Assembly: GCF_001708405.1 (NCBI RefSeq) | Contig: NZ_CP012418.1 | Span: forward strand, 1,826,501-1,890,500 | Origin: Kangiella sediminilitoris | GTDB lineage: Bacteria; Pseudomonadota; Gammaproteobacteria; Enterobacterales; Kangiellaceae | DNA: 64,000 nt | Reading direction: 5' to 3' | Shown here: positions 43,035 to 51,850 of the stretch, piece by piece | Numbering within the stretch: position 1 is the first letter of the stretch | Layout of the letters: each line of letters starts with the position of its first letter | Program-made: the position numbers and the translations under genes | The notes under the pieces: model-generated | The model's database searches: none | Seen by the model: the letters and a program-made list of their open reading frames with translations, nothing else | What the model was told of the DNA's origin: nothing

Positions 43035-46000
43035 TTATTTCGTGTAGCGTTTTCTCGCAAACGCACCTAATACAAGAAGCAATAACCAGCCAGCACTACC
43101 ACCACCAGAGCCACCGGAAGTATTTCCACCAGTATCTGGTTTGGCAGCAACGTCTACTTCCACTGTTTTGCTGTCATGAGTAGTGCCATCACTTACTGTC
43201 ACAGTGAAGCTGTATGAGCCCTCAGTTAAACCAGAGACAGTAGTCTTGGCTGCTGATGGGTCAGTAATAGTTACATCACCGCTCCAGTTGAAGCTCAGGT
43301 TATCACCATCAGGGTCATGGCTTGGAGTCGCATCAAGAGTCACAGTATCGCCTTCTGTAATGCTGATACTTTCAGCAACAACTGCCGCTACAGGCGCATC
43401 ATTTACAGGATTTACCGTTACCATAAACTTGGTGCTGGCCTGATCCGTTGCCTGATTATCATCTCTTACCGTTACTGTAACCTCAGTAGTACCACTGAAG
43501 TTTTCATTTGCGATAAGGTCAAACGTTGAACCATTAGTGTGACCATGCACATCGGCTGTAACGCCTTCGCCTGAAACAATAATAGTGTTAGATACGTTGT
43601 TGTTATCCATGTAAGCAACCTGGATGCCTTCAATCGTGCCTTCTTCTTCCATTGTTTGATCATTGATGCTGAAGATAGTGATGTTTGATGGAGCTTTTAA
43701 CGGCGCCGTCAGGATTTTCGTACCCACACCATCAAGCACGAGCTCTGCCAGAATGTCAAAGTTCTGACCAATTGCTTCCGGTAAAACTTTAACCTGGAAC
43801 TCAACTTCAAATGCAGTAACTTCTGGACCGTTGTAGTCAAAACAGATGGCCATCTCGTCACGCAGGAAGTTGTTTAACCCGCCATAACCATTGTTGTCTG
43901 GCATAACACTTTGGTTTATGAAGCCATTAATCGGACCTCCAGCCCAAGGACTCGCACCACCATGGACACCCGCCGTAGCGATATTTTCGACAGTTGCAAA
44001 CTGCTGGAACTGAGAGCCATTGCCGGTATAGTTGCCAAACTGCATATTGTCGTAGGCATACACCATCTCATATGCGCCAGTCGCTGAACTGTAATCACGA
44101 GCAAGGATTAACTGAGCATCAACAGACGTTGTAGAGTTAGTGTTCGGTCCCCAACCAGCACAGCCACGGAAAGTACAAGACTCGCCTGTTACGTGCTGCA
44201 GGTTATCCCACTCGATCAGAACATGAGTACCTTGATTTTGCTGGTTAACCAGCTGTACGAATGTGATACCAGAAGCGTCTGCCTCAACACCCTCGTCAAC
44301 ATAAGGTGCGCCAAACTCCATGCCTTGAGCACCAAAGCCCGCCATACCGTACCAGAAGACACCCATGTTAGCGAAAGATGGTGCCTTGTAGTTCTCATTA
44401 AAGGCGGCGTTCTGATAAGAGCCGAAGAAACCAGGTGCATAGCCATGAAGATCAACCATACCATTACCCCAGATATACAGGCTCTGGCTGTTGAACATAC
44501 CACCTTCATAGTAGTTGTATAACGCATACTTTTCACCGGCAGCTGAACGACCATCCTGGAAGATTTCATTCAGCGTTACCTGTAAACCAGGCTGTCTGTT
44601 ACTTTCTGGAGCACCGTCAACAGGCTTGATACCGTAATCATACAAGTTAACATAGCCACCGTTACCTACTGGTGTACGACAGGTCGCATCGGTAAGGGAG
44701 TTAGTAATAATATACTCACGCTCACGGTCACGACTATCTTCCTGAAGTCCAGAAACGGTAAAAGTATTGCCATTTTCAGTAACATCAGCGTTAGCGAAAC
44801 GATTATCAACCAGTTTGACGCTACCAGGAACCAACTCAAGACCCTCAGGAATTTCTGAAGAGATAGAGAAGTTACGGTCAGCGCCGCTAAGGTTGGCACT
44901 TACTGCCACTTTATAGTCGATGACATCACCAACAACTGCGCCATTTTGACTTGAAGTCAAATTGATACCATTTTGCTGGCGTACGAAGTTCGCTGAAATT
45001 AAACCAATGTTACCTGGGTTATTTGCATCAGTACCAAACTCTACTGCAGTATAATATTTTTCACCTTCTGCGAAGCTTGAGTCGTCCAATGTTAATGTTA
45101 CGTCTGATAATTGATCCAGCTCGCTAGAGACAGGCGCATCAACAACAATGTTAGACGCTTCGTTATCCATCACAACGGCAGTCGCCACTTTGTGTTTAAA
45201 GATAGCATCTTCATACCCTAGGTAACTGCGTGTATTGTAATTATGCTCTTGCCATACCACCCAATACTCACCCGCTTCAGGGTTTGGAATATTACACCAG
45301 TCTTTCAATTCAAAAGAGTTAATAACTGATTTACAGATAGCTTCGCTGTCATAATCTATTACACCGTCTTTATTGGCGTCGATACCAACATAAATACCGG
45401 CATTACCCTGTGGTCGAGTAAATTCATTGGGGTTAATAGCTCCGCCACTTTCAAGAACTTCTGCAACGAAACGCTTAGCACCCTCAGGAACTGACACCCA
45501 TGATACTTTAACTTTATCCAAGTCCTGGGCTACTTCAAACAGATTAGAGCCGTTACCAGAATTACGCTCTACAAGCTCCACTTCTTCGATATTCGCCATT
45601 GCAGGTTCGAATGCTTTAACCGTCAGGTTGGGCGCTTCTCCAAGCTCAATATCATTGATGTTGTGGCTGCTCTTTTCAGAGAAGACGTTGTACTCAACAA
45701 CTTCCGGTAAAGTACCGCTATCCAGTTCCATTTCTACGTTCATGCTGGCAACTGGTACAGCTGGGTTTTCATGAGTGAAATGAACTTGCCCGAAAACAGA
45801 AAGACCGCGTGGAGATGAGTGAACACTTCTTGAGTCAATCCAAGAGCCGTTAATGATAATACGCTGTGTTTCACCCGCTTTCAGGGAGAAAGTACTAGGG
45901 AAAGCTTCCACCTCAACACTGTACTCAGAGGTTTCAGTCGATACGTTCCAGGTACCATCTACAGTCGCTGTCACTTCACGTACCCAGCTACAACTTTGGA

Positions 46001-48314
46001 AACATGCAGAATCCACCATGTTAGGTGTATTCAGAGCACCAATATTACCACCCTGATGTGGGTTAGCGATGCTGTAGTGCTCAACCGGTACATTCATGAT
46101 AAGACCTGAATGAATAGCTTTATCAACCTGAGCAATACCCGAACCATAGAACCATGGGTTTGTTAGCTCTGGACGACCGAAGCGATCACCCACTTCATCA
46201 TTGGCTGTAAGCTGAATCGCCGACATGACTTCCGATGGCGTCCAGTCCGGACGAGCCTGCTTCACTAGCGCCATCGCACCCGCGATATGAGGACTCGACA
46301 TTGAAGTACCGCTGATTGCGTTAAACTCGGTTGGACTAGCATACAGAGTGAACGGCTGATCCGCTGAATAAGCTGAATAAATATCAGAGCCCGGAGCAGT
46401 AATCGAAGGCGCTGTTGATTCGCGGTATTCTTCTAAGTAAGCATAGCCCTTTGAGCTGAAAACTGAGATCGCATCCTCTAGTGAAGGATTTATGTTTCTA
46501 TTAACAACCGTAGCTGGAATGGTTCCATAGTGTGAATCGAGATCATTCAACCATGTCACCATAGCCTGACCGTCATAGCGATCCATCTGAACCGTAGGAA
46601 TCTCATACGGAATGTTAGGATACATATCCGATGAAGAATCCGCAGTATTATAGATTACCGCTGCTGCGGCACCGCCAGCTGCAACGTTAGCAGATTTATC
46701 GACAAGAGGTGTAACACCACGCTCACAGAATACGATTTCGCCATTAGCGAACGTTCCTGCCGCAAATGGTGCAGAACATAGTGAGTCGCCATAGTCCGCA
46801 GCCAACACCATAGGACCAGATACAGCCTCTGTATTGATACCTTGAACGTCTGTACGGTAGCTTGCAGGAAGAGAGGTACCACTGTAACTCAAGTCCTGAA
46901 GACGCTTGCCAGTCTGAACATTAAAACTACGGCCGTGCTGACTTGAAGCTACTGATAATAACCAAGGAGAAACATGGTTAACAGAACGGTATGCACCGGC
47001 GTTACCTGCTGAAGCAGCCACATTGATACCCGCCTCATGAGCAGATAAGAATGCCAGCTCCACAGGGTCGTTGTGCGAGTCATAACCGCCAGAAATAGAG
47101 TAGTTAAGAACATCAACACCATCTAAAATTGCTTGCTCGACAGCCTGCAAAGTTGCAGAGCTAGGACAGCCTACCCACTTATCCGCACCGCCGCTACCCG
47201 GATAGCAAACCTGATACGAAATAATGTTAGCGTGCGGGGCAATTCCCGACATTTCAGGAATAGTGTAGCCTGTATCAATACCTTCGTGTGTCACAGCAAG
47301 AGCTGGTACTTTATAAGGAACATCATACAAAACGTTACCAGCAGCAATACTGGCAGTATGCGAACCATGGCCCTGGTAGTCTTCACCATTAGCTGGACGA
47401 GACTGGGCAAACTCAGGATCGCTGAACGCATCGGTAATAATTGGCGTTGACCATACCCCGATTAATTTATCATTACACATATCAGCAAAGTCAGCGTTCT
47501 GACAGTCATGCAGATAGTTACCTGAACCTAATGGGTTTTGAACCGTATAACCATCACCACCGGTAGCTGCAAATGATGGATGCTGTGAGTTAATACCGGT
47601 ATCAATAACACCCACCAACATGCCTTCACCTTTAATGCCGTTGGCAAAGTCCGGGATACTGGTATCAGCCCAGACATTAGGCACGCCTGTACGCTCAGGT
47701 GCAATATCCATCAACAACTCGTTGTTCACATCACGAGAAATGTAAGCAACATCACCCAGCTTGGATAAACGCTCGGCTTCTTCTTGTGTCATCTCAGCCA
47801 CGATAGCGTTAACTGCAATCTGGTGACTCTGCTTAACGTTTAAACTGACACCGACAGAACTTGCTTTACTGACTAAAGCATCCTGCTTGCTTTTTAGCTT
47901 ACTGGTGTACTCAACCACTGCAGAGTTTGACTTAAGATTGCTTTTACTAGGGCCGAGATTTTTATTTGAGAACAGCTGCTTGGTAGCGCCTTCCCCATTA
48001 GTACCACCAGTGTATAGTGCTGCTGGAGCGTCTTTTAACTGGATGATGTAGTTGTGTACCCCAGAAATACCCTCTTCTGGTTTAAATTTTACCTTTGGGC
48101 TTAGTTTTAGGTTAGCACCGAATCCTTCCAATAACTCACTTTGAGGTTGTTGGCCTGCACTGGATTCAAGTCTGCTCTTGGCAGCCTCGGGACTGATATT
48201 AATCGGTTTTATCTGGTAGGTATCACTGCTACCTACTGCACTTGCAGTTGCGGCTATACCTGCTGAGTAAACAGCGGCTGCGACAACTGAAGCGATGGTC
48301 ATAATTTTCACCAC
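43035..48314 (-). CDS. Large secreted S8 (subtilisin-like) serine protease with GlyGly-CTERM
   Basis: A 1759-residue secreted or surface protease. Order: signal peptide (1-26), I9-like propeptide (about 85-200, NYIIQLKDAPA), S8 catalytic domain with Asp 238 (GVIDTGINSQHPS), His 316 (GHGSHTAS), Asn 438 (SAGNAG) and Ser 671 (GTSMSSPHIAG). A PA domain is inserted at about 495-600. Long beta-rich regions follow, then a PKD/cadherin-like domain (about 1620-1720, NPVNDAPVAA). The C-terminal tail has a Gly-rich GGSGGGSAG, hydrophobic helix and RKR end, i.e. GlyGly-CTERM, processed by rhombosortase in type II secretion bacteria. The start is GTG 48314 or 48311, with AGAGGAG just upstream. It is divergent from the MipA-DUF3019-two-component set. 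Confidence 0.93.
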   Translation of the reverse strand: MVKIMTIASVVAAAVYSAGIAATASAVGSSDTYQIKPINISPEAAKSRLESSAGQQPQSELLEGFGANLKLSPKVKFKPEEGISGVHNYIIQLKDAPAALYTGGTNGEGATKQLFSNKNLGPSKSNLKSNSAVVEYTSKLKSKQDALVSKASSVGVSLNVKQSHQIAVNAIVAEMTQEEAERLSKLGDVAYISRDVNNELLMDIAPERTGVPNVWADTSIPDFANGIKGEGMLVGVIDTGINSQHPSFAATGGDGYTVQNPLGSGNYLHDCQNADFADMCNDKLIGVWSTPIITDAFSDPEFAQSRPANGEDYQGHGSHTASIAAGNVLYDVPYKVPALAVTHEGIDTGYTIPEMSGIAPHANIISYQVCYPGSGGADKWVGCPSSATLQAVEQAILDGVDVLNYSISGGYDSHNDPVELAFLSAHEAGINVAASAGNAGAYRSVNHVSPWLLSVASSQHGRSFNVQTGKRLQDLSYSGTSLPASYRTDVQGINTEAVSGPMVLAADYGDSLCSAPFAAGTFANGEIVFCERGVTPLVDKSANVAAGGAAAAVIYNTADSSSDMYPNIPYEIPTVQMDRYDGQAMVTWLNDLDSHYGTIPATVVNRNINPSLEDAISVFSSKGYAYLEEYRESTAPSITAPGSDIYSAYSADQPFTLYASPTEFNAISGTSMSSPHIAGAMALVKQARPDWTPSEVMSAIQLTANDEVGDRFGRPELTNPWFYGSGIAQVDKAIHSGLIMNVPVEHYSIANPHQGGNIGALNTPNMVDSACFQSCSWVREVTATVDGTWNVSTETSEYSVEVEAFPSTFSLKAGETQRIIINGSWIDSRSVHSSPRGLSVFGQVHFTHENPAVPVASMNVEMELDSGTLPEVVEYNVFSEKSSHNINDIELGEAPNLTVKAFEPAMANIEEVELVERNSGNGSNLFEVAQDLDKVKVSWVSVPEGAKRFVAEVLESGGAINPNEFTRPQGNAGIYVGIDANKDGVIDYDSEAICKSVINSFELKDWCNIPNPEAGEYWVVWQEHNYNTRSYLGYEDAIFKHKVATAVVMDNEASNIVVDAPVSSELDQLSDVTLTLDDSSFAEGEKYYTAVEFGTDANNPGNIGLISANFVRQQNGINLTSSQNGAVVGDVIDYKVAVSANLSGADRNFSISSEIPEGLELVPGSVKLVDNRFANADVTENGNTFTVSGLQEDSRDREREYIITNSLTDATCRTPVGNGGYVNLYDYGIKPVDGAPESNRQPGLQVTLNEIFQDGRSAAGEKYALYNYYEGGMFNSQSLYIWGNGMVDLHGYAPGFFGSYQNAAFNENYKAPSFANMGVFWYGMAGFGAQGMEFGAPYVDEGVEADASGITFVQLVNQQNQGTHVLIEWDNLQHVTGESCTFRGCAGWGPNTNSTTSVDAQLILARDYSSATGAYEMVYAYDNMQFGNYTGNGSQFQQFATVENIATAGVHGGASPWAGGPINGFINQSVMPDNNGYGGLNNFLRDEMAICFDYNGPEVTAFEVEFQVKVLPEAIGQNFDILAELVLDGVGTKILTAPLKAPSNITIFSINDQTMEEEGTIEGIQVAYMDNNNVSNTIIVSGEGVTADVHGHTNGSTFDLIANENFSGTTEVTVTVRDDNQATDQASTKFMVTVNPVNDAPVAAVVAESISITEGDTVTLDATPSHDPDGDNLSFNWSGDVTITDPSAAKTTVSGLTEGSYSFTVTVSDGTTHDSKTVEVDVAAKPDTGGNTSGGSGGGSAGWLLLLVLGAFARKRYTK

Positions 48315-48394
48315 AAAACTCCTCTTTCAATTCAATTACTTTTATTAAGCGAAAGAAGGTATAGCACATAGATAAACTTATTGATGAGGGATGA

Positions 48395-48465
48395 TTTGTA
48401 CGAAATTGTACGAATAACAGACAATCAAATACTTCCATAACTGTTTGTACGAAGTTGTACGAATT
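48395..48465. promoter_or_regulatory. Two 21-bp elements of 10-bp direct repeats (putative response-regulator operator)
   Basis: TTTGTACGAAATTGTACGAA occurs at 48395-48414, and TTTGTACGAAGTTGTACGAA at 48444-48463, differing in one base; both continue with T. Each holds two TTGTACGAA half-sites exactly 10 bp apart, and the two elements start 49 bp apart. This is the layout bound by OmpR/PhoB-type regulators. They lie between the S8 protease (minus) and the MipA-like gene (plus), which leads to an OmpR-type regulator gene. Binding by that regulator is inference. Confidence 0.65.
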
Positions 48466-48560
48466 CAGTTTACTGGTTGGACAACCCTATAAGGCGTTGC
48501 TAGACTAAATTCTGGTACAAACTGATGTGCTTTTAGAGCGCCGCTGATAATATTTTAAGA

Positions 48561-49453
48561 ATGAGAAAACCTTTTTTTATAGCATCTATTTTCTGGCTTT
48601 TGGCAGCCACTGTGCATGCCGAAACGACTGAAATTGAAATCGAGGTCATCGAAAGTGATCCTGATGTTGTTGAGCAAGTTGAAAATGATGATCCCCACAA
48701 TAGCAAAACTAATTCTGGAGAATGGAATATTTCTCTAAGCCTGGGCTATGGGCAAGTAGAAAGTATTATCAGTAATGTAGATGACTTTGATCTCTATCTA
48801 CTTCCAAACATCAGCTATTATGGTGAGAGTTTTTTCCTTGAAAATACCACCATGGGTTACAGCCTGTATGAGGATGAAGATTTTTATCTCGACATTGTAG
48901 GGAAACTCAATGAAGACGGTATTTACTTCAACCTGGATGACTTTGGTGTTTTTTCTGCTTTAGGAACATCACCACCCTTAAGGGACCCAAGAATCCCTCC
49001 CCCCCGGATATCGACAGAGACATCTCCTATCTGGCTGGCCTTGCTCTTAGTTATGAGCTGGCAGGGTTGGATTTAAACGCGGGCTACTATCAGGACATTA
49101 CCGATGTGCATAACGGCTACGAGGTAACTCTGGGTCTCTCTAAGCGCTTTTTGCTAACTGATAACTGGTCACTGTATTTAGGGGCAAATGCAAACCATAA
49201 GAGCAAAAAGTTATTAAAGTATTATTATGGCATTACTCCTGAGGAGGGGCTGCTTCCGGCATTTACTTATCAACCCAATTCCTCAGGCAATAATTATTCT
49301 TTTATTGTAAACTCAGAATATGCGTTTCATGACAACTGGAGCTGGCAGTTATTAATCAAGAGAAACCTACTATCTGATGAAATAACCGACAGCCTTATCG
49401 TAAATACAAAGCACACGGACACTTACTTTTTTGGGATAAAATATACGCTGTAA
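48561..49453 (+). pseudogene. MipA/OmpV family outer-membrane protein, frameshifted at a poly-C run
   Basis: Two overlapping frames (48561-49076 and 49067-49453) form one protein. The first part has a signal peptide (to about residue 20, VHAETTE), an acidic stretch and beta-barrel strands (SLSLGYGQVES, LLPNISYYGESFFLE). The second continues SYELAGLDLNAGYYQDI and has KKLLKYYYGITPEE, typical of MipA/OmpV. The break is at seven C (48999-49005). One more C would restore IPPPPDIDRDISYLAG. MipA proteins are outer-membrane scaffolds linked to peptidoglycan enzymes. It could be a decayed gene, a phase-variable one or a sequencing error. Confidence 0.85.
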
Positions 49454-49454
49454 A

Positions 49455-49913
49455 ATGAAAGCATTAGGGCAAACGTCACAACTATTCATTCTCTATATAA
49501 TAATAGGGATGAGCTTAGTGTTTGCCCAAGAAGCGTTCGCCGGAGAAGAAAACCCCTGGCAAAAGAAATCTAAAATAACTCACCAGAAGAAAGCGGTCTT
49601 AACGATTACCCCATCTGTTTGTGTAATCAAAGTGAAAGGTGAAGTCTGCCAACAGATACTAAAGGTCTCTTACCGAAGTCAGCAACAATATGATGTTTGC
49701 ATTTACTACTCTAGGAGTGAAGAGCCGTTCTGGTGTGAAGAAGATATCAAAAAGGCCGATCTTGAAATAACCGTCAAAGCAAATAGTAGTATTAAGCTTT
49801 TGGCCAAGAATAACGATGACAACAATATTCTGGCAACAGGTCGCTTCATACTCAGTATGTTTCAGCCCGCTAAAGAACGTAAACGTCGACACTATGGCAT
49901 AGGAATTATCTGA
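49455..49913 (+). CDS. DUF3019 domain-containing exported protein
   Basis: A 152-residue protein with a signal peptide (about residues 1-29, cleavage after AFA). The mature part has conserved-looking cysteines (VCVIKVKGEVCQQ, DVCIYYS, FWCEED), consistent with disulfides and the DUF3019 family, which in marine gammaproteobacteria often sits with MipA/OmpV and two-component genes. Function is unknown. It begins one base after the MipA stop and ends two bases before the response regulator gene, so all are one transcript. A periplasmic sensory or accessory role for the kinase is plausible but unproven. Confidence 0.8.
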   Translation: MKALGQTSQLFILYIIIGMSLVFAQEAFAGEENPWQKKSKITHQKKAVLTITPSVCVIKVKGEVCQQILKVSYRSQQQYDVCIYYSRSEEPFWCEEDIKKADLEITVKANSSIKLLAKNNDDNNILATGRFILSMFQPAKERKRRHYGIGII

Positions 49914-49915
49914 AT

Positions 49916-50614
49916 ATGTTAGTTGACTGCAAAATTCTGCTAATTGAAGATGACCTGCCCCTTGCTGAGCTTATTCAAGAATACCTTAGTTCACAAGGCT
50001 TTGAACTGACCCATATTTCTAAAGGCCTTGATGTTCACAATATCAAAGACACAGACAGTTATGATCTTATTGTCTGTGACGTCATGCTGCCCGACATTGA
50101 TGGATTTAACCTGAAAAGCACATTGGAACAGAAGTTTCCGTGTCCTATTATTTTCTTAACCGCATTGAGTGATGACGAAGACCAGATTAGAGGGTTAGAG
50201 CTTGGTGCCATTGATTACATTGTTAAGCCCGTTGAGCCAAATGTTTTATTGGCTCGAATTAAAGCGAACCTTCGAAAAACTCAGGACTTTTCTGCTCAGG
50301 ATAAAATTGTAATTTCTGATTTAGTTTTGGACCAAAATGCCAAAACCGCAACGCTGTCTGATCAGGTATTGGATCTCACCAGTCAGGACTTTGACCTGTT
50401 GTGGGTTTTTGCGCAGAATCAGGGGAAAATTTTATCGCGCGAGCAACTTTTTAAGTTAATTATTGGGAGAGAGTACAATGGACTGGATAGAACGGTGGAT
50501 GCAAGAACCAGTCGCTTAAGAAGCAAGCTTGATAGTCTCGATATACCCGGACTGGTCATTAGAACCGTTTGGGGCAAAGGCTACCTGTTCACCTATACAA
50601 AGTCGGCAGAGTAA
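49916..50614 (+). CDS. OmpR-family response regulator
   Basis: A 232-residue transcription regulator. The receiver domain (about 5-118) has the acidic pair E11/D12, phosphoacceptor D55 (IVCDVMLPD), T82 and K104 (IVKPVEP). The C-terminal winged-helix domain (about 130-228) includes LTSQDFDLLWVFAQNQGKILSREQL-type sequence and RTVDARTSRLRSKL, ending VWGKGYLF. It is followed 3 bp later by the kinase. The direct repeats upstream of the module are a natural candidate for its binding site. Confidence 0.94.
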   Translation: MLVDCKILLIEDDLPLAELIQEYLSSQGFELTHISKGLDVHNIKDTDSYDLIVCDVMLPDIDGFNLKSTLEQKFPCPIIFLTALSDDEDQIRGLELGAIDYIVKPVEPNVLLARIKANLRKTQDFSAQDKIVISDLVLDQNAKTATLSDQVLDLTSQDFDLLWVFAQNQGKILSREQLFKLIIGREYNGLDRTVDARTSRLRSKLDSLDIPGLVIRTVWGKGYLFTYTKSAE

Positions 50615-50617
50615 CTG

Positions 50618-51850
50618 ATGAAGTTTCAGTTTTTTCGCTTTTATGCCTTAGTTGTTTTGGCTGCTGCGCTATTAATCTGGTCATTTAATCAGATTTACAA
50701 TGCAATACAGGAGCCGAATAAAAGCTACCAGGTTGATATCGACTACTTTATTGAACGATACAATCAGCCAGCAACAGAGAGTGGTAACTCAACAGGTCAG
50801 CTTCCCCTTTTTAACACTATATCAGCTGAAAGCTTAGTCTTACCTGAGGACGTAGAACAACTTCTGGACACAGGTAATGTCATCGCCTTATCCGATGATA
50901 ATGGCAATACTTTCTACTACAAAAAAAATCAGTCAGGACAAACATTGACAATGTTTGGGCCATTTCAGGATGTTAAGAAAGATTCGAATATCGAGCCTTA
51001 TATAATCCCGCTATTCTATAGCAGCTTGGCGTGCCTGATACTTTTTTTAATGCGTCCTATCTTCAGAGATCTTCAACAACTACAAAACGAAGCGGCTGAA
51101 TTTGGTCGACACCCGACACCCATGAGTCACTCAATCAAAGAGTCATCCAACATCTTCCCTCTAGCCAAATCATTCTATTCCATGTCAGATAAGATCGTGA
51201 GTTTTATCCAGATGAATAAGGATTTGTCTCGCACCATTTCCCATGAAATTCGAACTCCGTTAGCTCGAATGAAGTTTATGCTGGAAATTATTGCGCCAAA
51301 AATCAAGCGCTCACAGAAAGAGCGAATTCAAAATGATATAGCGGAAATAGAATCATTGGTTAACGACTACCTTTCTTTTGCTAAGGTAGAAAATGAAGCA
51401 GATAGTATCAACCGTGAACGACATTCCATGAAAAATTTCCTGCAGGAAATATACGACAAGTTTTCTATTTATGAGCAGGAAACAGCCATCAAATACCACA
51501 GCGATGATGTTATGGCTTACTTCGACCAGGGGTCTATGTCTATCGCCATACAAAACCTTTTAACCAATGCTTTAAGATTCTCTAAACAAACCATCAGTCT
51601 CGATTTCCGTCTGAAAGACGACACCTGTATTTTATCTGTGGAGGACGACGGCCCTGGAGTTGGTGATAATGCAGACAACCTTATGCAGCCCTTCAGCAGA
51701 AAAAATACCAAAGAGCAAAACCATAAGGGCTTCGGCCTGGGACTTTACATCGTTCGTAAAGTGGCTATTTGGCACGAAGGAGAGTTTTCCATCGCACAGT
51801 CCGATAAGCTAGGCGGAGCAAAAATGCAGATCCGCTGGCCAAATAACTAA
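50618..51850 (+). CDS. Sensor histidine kinase
   Basis: A 410-residue inner-membrane kinase. TM1 is about residues 9-26 and TM2 127-146, enclosing a periplasmic sensor of about 100 residues. The HisKA domain has H209 in RTISHEIRTPLARMKF. The ATPase domain shows the N box IQNLLTNALRF, DDGPGVG and GFGLGLYIVRKVA. It is the partner of the adjacent OmpR-type regulator. The stimulus is unknown, but the MipA and DUF3019 genes point to envelope sensing. The stop lies 11 bp from the convergent SpmAB-like gene. Confidence 0.94.
   Translation: MKFQFFRFYALVVLAAALLIWSFNQIYNAIQEPNKSYQVDIDYFIERYNQPATESGNSTGQLPLFNTISAESLVLPEDVEQLLDTGNVIALSDDNGNTFYYKKNQSGQTLTMFGPFQDVKKDSNIEPYIIPLFYSSLACLILFLMRPIFRDLQQLQNEAAEFGRHPTPMSHSIKESSNIFPLAKSFYSMSDKIVSFIQMNKDLSRTISHEIRTPLARMKFMLEIIAPKIKRSQKERIQNDIAEIESLVNDYLSFAKVENEADSINRERHSMKNFLQEIYDKFSIYEQETAIKYHSDDVMAYFDQGSMSIAIQNLLTNALRFSKQTISLDFRLKDDTCILSVEDDGPGVGDNADNLMQPFSRKNTKEQNHKGFGLGLYIVRKVAIWHEGEFSIAQSDKLGGAKMQIRWPNN

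Follow-up and report, generated by a model that had tools for sequence, protein, structure and literature searches.

Introduction

The response regulator RstA binds a tandem of TACA elements spaced 10 bp, as described in the accessible parts of two papers (PMC4117788, PMC5385354), and this RstA box is bound by the two DNA-binding domains of an OmpR-class dimer, with Arg199, Val203 and Arg207 of kpRstA contacting bases (PMC4117788, same parts). MipA/OmpV proteins have been tied to polymyxin sensing by ParRS (PMC10936184), are under CarSR control (PMC9178039) and are represented in the regulon of the RstA-like BesRS (PMC9426598), as far as the accessible portions of these papers tell; an OmpV of Vibrio mimicus has also been studied (PMC13413815, available in part). 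No mention of DUF3019 was found in the literature searched, a scope that left most subscription journals outside, and no literature on the operator described here was found under MipA with both serine peptidase and two-component system, subtilase-OmpR divergent promoters, or Kangiella two-component.

Here we describe a paired direct repeat in a 64-kb stretch of Kangiella DNA, called the window, which was analyzed as a whole. Judged from sequence comparison, the two pairs are with high probability the operators of the adjacent RstA-like response regulator (49916-50614), one for each of two divergent promoters, and the regulon would consist of this region.

Results and Discussion

Two near-identical pairs lie between divergent genes

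Exact copies of TTGTACGAA start at 48396, 48406, 48445 and 48455 of the window, all on the + strand. The half-sites within each pair have a period of 10 bp, the pairs start 49 bp apart and the two 19-mers are identical except for the central base, A in pair 1 and G in pair 2; the identity runs one further T on either side. Period, pair distance and one-base difference had all been claimed in the sequence-only reading and were borne out by our motif scan. Its four copies arranged as two pairs were also found, although the span is slightly shorter than the 71 bp it gave, as the outermost bases of the four half-sites (48396 and 48463) enclose 68 bp. The pairs are located in a 246-bp gap between a divergent S8 subtilase gene and an operon of mipA, DUF3019, response regulator (RR) and histidine kinase (HK) genes:

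43035 to 48314, - strand: subtilase, 1759 aa, with I9, S8, PA and PKD-like domains and a GlyGly-CTERM-like tail
48396 to 48414, + strand: putative operator pair 1 on the side of the S8 promoter, TTGTACGAA-A-TTGTACGAA; the 7 species agree in 15 of 19 columns
48445 to 48463, + strand: putative operator pair 2 on the side of the mipA operon promoter, TTGTACGAA-G-TTGTACGAA; the 7 species agree in 18 of 19 columns
48561 to 49453, + strand: mipA/ompV-family gene, split over two frames (ORFs 48561-49076 and 49067-49453)
49455 to 49913, + strand: DUF3019 protein (PF11456), putative exported accessory protein; beta-rich model with mean pLDDT 70
49916 to 50614, + strand: OmpR-class RR, DNA-binding domain nearest RstA structures
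50618 to 51850, + strand: HK, best NCBIfam model RstB (193.8 bits, cut-off 478)

Allowing up to one mismatch, the window holds 14 matches to TTGTACGAA (4 exact, 10 with one mismatch) and shuffled windows average 15, so only the four exact copies are remarkable. The earlier statement that the motif occurs nowhere else in the window is thus true of exact copies, the one-mismatch matches being at shuffle level. In the 2,496,140-base genome the 19-mer is found exactly at just these two sites, and at 3 mismatches there are 2 matches elsewhere, compared with 4 for a backwards-pattern control. An exact motif scan of a collection of 84,980 genomes, in which close neighbours of the window's record may be missing, returned 20 stretches. 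Of these, 4 are Kangiella loci with the motif at this position, and the remaining 16 are single matches from other genera, spread over several phyla. By a hand estimate, random sequence would give about 7.

The pairs follow the adjacent regulator within Kangiella

We analyzed 20 Kangiella genomes, including the window's own. An RR match of at least 75% identity (75-100%) was present in 7 of them, again counting the window's, one of which (G002) is only 55% complete. The same seven genomes all carry both pairs at this spot, pair 2 exactly and pair 1 with 0-2 mismatches, and the gene order, a divergent S8 gene followed by mipA-DUF3019-RR-HK, is shared by the window and all six relatives. The distance between the pairs is 48 bp in the six relatives vs. 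49 bp in the window. As both pairs are kept in every one of the seven species that have the adjacent RR, they are more than a product of chance. The S8 gene was found in eight of the 20 genomes, namely the seven RR-bearing ones and one further genome, G018.

No further pair match at up to 2 mismatches was seen in the seven RR-bearing genomes, and no pair was found at such a place in the 13 genomes without the RR, among which a single unlinked 2-mismatch match in G018 was the sole one. The backwards-pattern control gave 6 matches in the same 20 genomes, and at 3 mismatches nothing more rose above this control. A genome-wide spread of matches, which the sequence-only reading had named as evidence against an operator, was looked for and did not appear. 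A wider regulon was also looked for and not found at up to 3 mismatches, the other matches in the 20 Kangiella genomes being at control level.

An alignment of the seven intergenic gaps, 57-68% identical to the window, showed where the conservation is placed. Invariant columns made up 33 of 38 in the operator pairs vs. 9 of 30 between them, and the sole variable column of pair 2 is its central base. Elsewhere in the gap the numbers were 0 of 6 right after pair 2 and 7 of 28 from pair 1 to the S8 -10; the two leaders had 11 of 43 (S8) and 4 of 54 (mipA).

Every one of the 20 genomes contains 7-11 matches to the RR at E ≤1e-20, and the pairs could in principle be operators of another regulator of the cell, a global OmpR-class protein or some other factor, that also controls the region. 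We regard this as quite unlikely. Among the 20 genomes the paired site occurs only where this RR occurs and only beside it, a global regulator would leave sites elsewhere and the remaining matches at 3 mismatches are at control level, and a tandem of the same kind precedes DUF3019-linked operons across the family but is nearly absent from control windows (see below).

The repeats allow yet another description, because GTAC is self-complementary: GTACGAANTTGTAC could be taken for an imperfect palindrome recognised by a one-component dimer, and GTACGAATTTGTAC, the form of pair 2 in five relatives, is palindromic bar one mismatched pair. However, relatives carry TGTAGCATTTTGTAG, TGTATCAGTTTGTATC and TGTAATCTTATGTAATC, which are direct 10-bp tandems lacking that symmetry. 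We rejected the palindrome on the ground that its symmetry is not kept in relatives, and its probability is very small.

The regulator and its site resemble RstA and the RstA box

Among NCBIfam models the HK scored best with RstB, 63 bits ahead of EnvZ (130.4 bits), although at 193.8 vs. 478 bits it stays below the RstB cut-off. The RR gave VanR 177.9, RstA 169.0 and OmpR 168.6 bits, all far under the cut-offs (330 bits for RstA). The best PDB match of the full-length RR was BaeR, and its DNA-binding domain alone was closest to the RstA domains 2naz, 2mlk and 4nhj. For six further RRs of the family, RstA was the best model for L126, L133, L163 and, narrowly, L171; VanR was best and RstA second for L006 (Kangiella), and PhoB was best for L172. 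By alignment, the equivalents of Arg199, Val203 and Arg207 of kpRstA are Arg192, Ala196 and Arg200 in the window RR (our numbering). An Arg is present at the Arg199 position in 79 of 79 readable family rows and at the Arg207 position in 64 of the 79.

On the reverse strand both pairs read TACA-N6-TACA, which is the tandem of the RstA box (as in TACATNTNGTTACA). Of the other consensus letters of the box, TNTNGT between the TACAs, the window with A-N-TTCG matches one of the four fixed ones. The overall layout is that of OmpR/PhoB-class sites, two direct half-sites about one helical turn apart and upstream of a promoter. The Pho box has a period of 11 bp. The regulator class proposed in the sequence-only reading, OmpR/PhoB with a 10-bp tandem, is supported, and the layout can be refined: it is the one of the RstA box and differs from that of the Pho box. 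To judge by these comparisons, the system appears to act at its box as RstA does, without being a member of RstAB by the curated cut-offs.

A 10-bp tandem is enriched upstream of DUF3019-linked operons

DUF3019 was found in 64 of 295 genomes drawn from the order. A first set comprised 60 DUF3019 loci, 58 from the order and 2 from elsewhere in the class, of which 54 were used, as their DUF3019 gene was directly preceded by an ORF of 180 aa or more and followed by one of 200 aa or more; mipA and RR were assigned here by ORF length and position. From a second set of 40 loci 39 were used (L217 has no upstream ORF). Eight of the 40 (L041, L042, L044-L049) had been viewed beforehand, with 10-bp tandems already seen in L044 and L048, and hence this set is not truly held out. 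G401 C3, with its DUF3019 match at a contig edge, and L043 were left out of the counts. Expected numbers came from first-order resampling shuffles and, since many loci share genera and the shuffles are first-order, serve as guides.

In the first set a period of 10 was an outlier for tandem similarity, with 11 regions at 8/9 matches or better vs. 2.4 expected (n = 54). TGTA-N6-TGTA was present upstream in 17/54 regions (0.8 expected; other spacings 0-4) and in the second set in 13/39 (0.45 expected; other spacings 0-3), with 11/31 for the previously unseen loci alone. When both sets were pooled, 30/93 upstream regions had the tandem at exactly 10 bp, and these 30 loci cover 14 genera. Five control windows from the same loci gave 1/93, 0/93, 0/93, 1/91 and 3/93, and any other period from 5 to 30 was found in at most 5/93 regions. 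An 11-bp period was rejected, with 4/93 regions vs. the 30/93 at period 10. The other 63 of the 93 upstream regions are without the exact tandem; some of them carry TGTG variants, and a cluster of near-identical RRs (L121, L124, L129 and others) belongs to loci with no exact TGTA-N6-TGTA.

As a separate observation, in L163, L168 and L179 the divergent gene upstream of mipA codes not for a subtilase but for a lipoprotein-like protein with a VDESDRFHxNGQQLF-type stretch, which is weaker in L179.

Putative operators of loci with a divergent subtilase

In G018 (Kangiella) an S8 gene, its product 59% identical to the window's, lies beside a DUF3019 gene. The RR of this genome is about 40% identical to the window RR and falls outside its group in the tree, although the long branch makes its exact place unsure. 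The gap contains no TTGTACGAA and instead has a 10-bp tandem, GACTTTTGTCGACTTTTGT, repeated at 9 of 9 positions. The same place and period with different letters is what is expected of an operator that follows its regulator.

At about 1777-1996 of this locus (L171) regulator and operator appear to have been exchanged jointly.

Outside Kangiella, at least eight loci have a large S8 gene next to a DUF3019 gene and divergent from it, from a search whose first pass scored up to 3 candidates per genome. In a midpoint-rooted RR tree with several long branches, 14 of 15 RRs of S8-divergent loci form part of one 20-row group (support 99/98), the 15th being that of G018. A 16th such RR (L201) and L151, whose ORF is not an RR, were left out of the tree, and 18 of the 39 second-set loci gave no RR by the motif filter.

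Two of the eight loci, L150 and L172, have two TGTAGCATTTTGTA pairs each, 58 bp apart, which is one turn more than in Kangiella. L204 also has two such pairs, separated by 340 bp; one is 112 bp away from the S8 start and the other 106 bp away from that of mipA. L194 has one exact pair only, in a gap of 194 bp. The exact pairs of these four loci and the Kangiella pairs all point towards mipA. Degenerate TGTG or TGTC tandems only were found in the other four of the eight (L173, L177, L201 and L214).

These arrangements bear on the possibility that the repeats constitute a single four-site operator in which the 49-bp spacing is important, for looping or cooperative assembly. The spacings of 48 bp (six relatives), 49 bp (window) and 58 bp (L150, L172) would fit such an operator, but the wide separation in L204 and the lone exact pair of L194 would not, nor would G018 and L214, each of which shows one tandem (degenerate in L214); we therefore consider it unlikely. 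As an essential feature the fixed 49-bp spacing was rejected, being kept neither in L204 nor in L150 and L172. Most likely, as far as these arrangements tell, each promoter has its own pair, and a short gap can make do with one.

L208 (G365) is a second system in which a 66%-identical S8 gene is located downstream of the operon on the same strand and not divergently.

Promoter-like elements around the pairs

Three conserved or promoter-like elements flank the pairs:

48470 to 48483, + strand: invariant block TTACTGGTTGGACA, 14 of 14 columns invariant, holding a -35-like TGGACA (48478-48483)
48498 to 48506, + strand: extended -10 TGC-TAGACT of the presumed mipA operon promoter, from the promoter consensus scan
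48358 to 48366, - strand: presumed extended -10 TGC-TATACC of the S8 promoter, from conservation (7 of 9 columns invariant)

TGGACA and TGC-TAGACT are separated by 17 bp, and 9 of 11 columns at 48496-48506 are invariant in the seven species. Together they presumably form the mipA operon promoter (48478-48506), which would be sigma-70-like and have an extended -10; the consensus scan gave 2 promoter-like sites vs. 1.0 in shuffles. On the S8 side, the -10-like element reads TG[CA]TATAC across species (48366-48358). The consensus scan does not list this element, and no -35/-10 pair was found there.

In pair 1 the first TGTA is 34 bp away from the presumed S8 -10 hexamer, and in pair 2 it is 55 bp away from the mipA -10 hexamer. 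The 34-bp offset is common to Kangiella, L150, L172, L194 and L204 and scored 5.34 vs. a mean of 2.33 (sd 0.77) over 60 offsets scanned, having first been spotted by eye and with its four non-Kangiella loci belonging to one genus (g11). The 55-bp offset on the mipA side was best but weakly marked (3.71 vs. mean 2.53, sd 0.48). Transcription starts predicted from the -10 elements are near 48513 (+) and 48351 (-), which puts the pair centres near -59 on the mipA side and -54 on the S8 side. Both positions precede the core promoters, where sites of an activator would be expected.

The pairs share one absolute orientation, so that they are oriented oppositely with respect to their promoters. This would not be expected from a simple activation mechanism common to both. 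The opposite orientation, with the differing offsets (34 bp for S8, 55 bp for mipA), lends some weight to repression by the RR at one promoter or both, or to activation of mipA combined with repression of S8. Several points argue the other way. Both pairs are on the upstream side of the presumed core promoters, the usual place of activator sites; the consensus scan gives no -35/-10 pair at the presumed S8 promoter, a frequent trait of promoters under activation; and ParR and CarR activate mipA/ompV genes and the BesRS regulon includes a MipA/OmpV gene, according to the accessible parts of PMC10936184, PMC9178039 and PMC9426598. Repression is rather unlikely. We infer that the RR binds the pairs and that it acts by activation and not by repression.

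A model for the locus

The sequence-only reading had pointed to the protein encoded at 49916-50614 as the putative regulator. The co-occurrence of pairs and RR in 7/7 species and the absence of the pairs from this place in the 13 other genomes agree with this, and the changed tandem of G018 and the family-wide excess of TGTA-N6-TGTA at 10 bp add to it. According to our model, a dimer of the phosphorylated RR would occupy each pair with its two DNA-binding domains in tandem, each on one TGTA half-site, such that the two bound domains would be one helical turn apart. Pair 2 would serve the promoter of the RR's own mipA-DUF3019-RR-HK operon, and thereby autoregulation, and pair 1 the divergent promoter of the large subtilase. 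The regulon of the RR would then be essentially this single intergenic region.

The mipA/ompV gene adjoins RR and HK in the window and its relatives. It is split in the window genome and is one unbroken frame in 6/6 relatives; a run of seven C at 48999-49005 lies inside the stretch where the frames change over, and possible explanations of the break are a sequencing error, recent loss of the gene and a phase-variable tract. In the subtilase, the C-terminus (43035-43215) consists of a Gly-rich stretch, a hydrophobic segment and a basic tail, kept in 7/7 species. This GlyGly-CTERM-like tail suggests rhombosortase-type surface anchoring of the predicted protease. Four cysteines and a C-terminal RRxYGIGI motif are kept in 5/5 aligned Kangiella DUF3019 proteins. 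The DUF3019 model, of moderate confidence and from a five-sequence alignment, had no PDB match at E ≤0.001, and no function follows from it.

By analogy with described systems we infer that envelope damage or cationic peptides act as the signal and that MipA and DUF3019 help to sense it. The Kangiella system would accordingly detect damage to the envelope and turn on the subtilase gene along with its own operon. More tentatively, and with a rather low probability, the locus may be a self-contained envelope-defence module, where MipA and the uncharacterised DUF3019 protein would sense damage for the RstA-like kinase, the near-identical pairs, alike in absolute orientation and hence opposite relative to the two divergent promoters, would switch on the module's own sensor and a giant surface-anchored subtilase as the whole regulon, and the subtilase would destroy the attacking peptide.

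The analysis supplies a well-supported putative operator for the common, apparently unstudied two-component family mipA-DUF3019-RR-HK, and it links this family to the RstA-box mode of recognition. A very small regulon is predicted, with an outer-membrane sensor operon and a large surface protease under joint control. The half-site variants TGTAC, TGTAGC, TGTATC and TGTC, with RR sequences known, are material for an RR-DNA recognition code.

Comparison with known systems

In BesRS of Burkholderia thailandensis the RR is 45% identical to RstA and the system responds to polymyxin; a MipA/OmpV protein in the regulon and a direct repeat in a target promoter are features in common with our locus, whereas its regulon is larger and its half-site is TGCG/TGCA (PMC9426598, accessible parts). 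In Pseudomonas aeruginosa the ParRS two-component system activates the mip operon, with MipA as proposed polymyxin co-sensor. The partner of MipA is however the beta-lactamase-fold lipoprotein MipB and not DUF3019, and polymyxin B does not induce parRS itself (PMC10936184, available sections). CarSR (VprAB) of Vibrio cholerae is also called RstAB and its site has been compared with the RstA box. CarSR responds to cationic peptide and binds at ompV, of the MipA family, which falls in a carR mutant. In contrast to the Kangiella system it has several targets, and no DUF3019 or divergent subtilase was found in the accessible part of its description (PMC9178039, for all statements on CarSR).

The likeness to RstAB of E. 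coli and Klebsiella lies in the tandem TACA, which is TGTA on the other strand, at exactly 10 bp, in a kinase nearest RstB and in the conservation of the base-contacting Arg199 and Arg207 in the window RR. The Kangiella system differs by a half-site extended to TTGTACGAA, by RR and HK scores under the RstA and RstB cut-offs, and by its linkage to mipA-DUF3019 and a subtilase with no second genomic site found. As far as such comparison can tell, the operator is very probably a further instance of a well-known type of bacterial switch.
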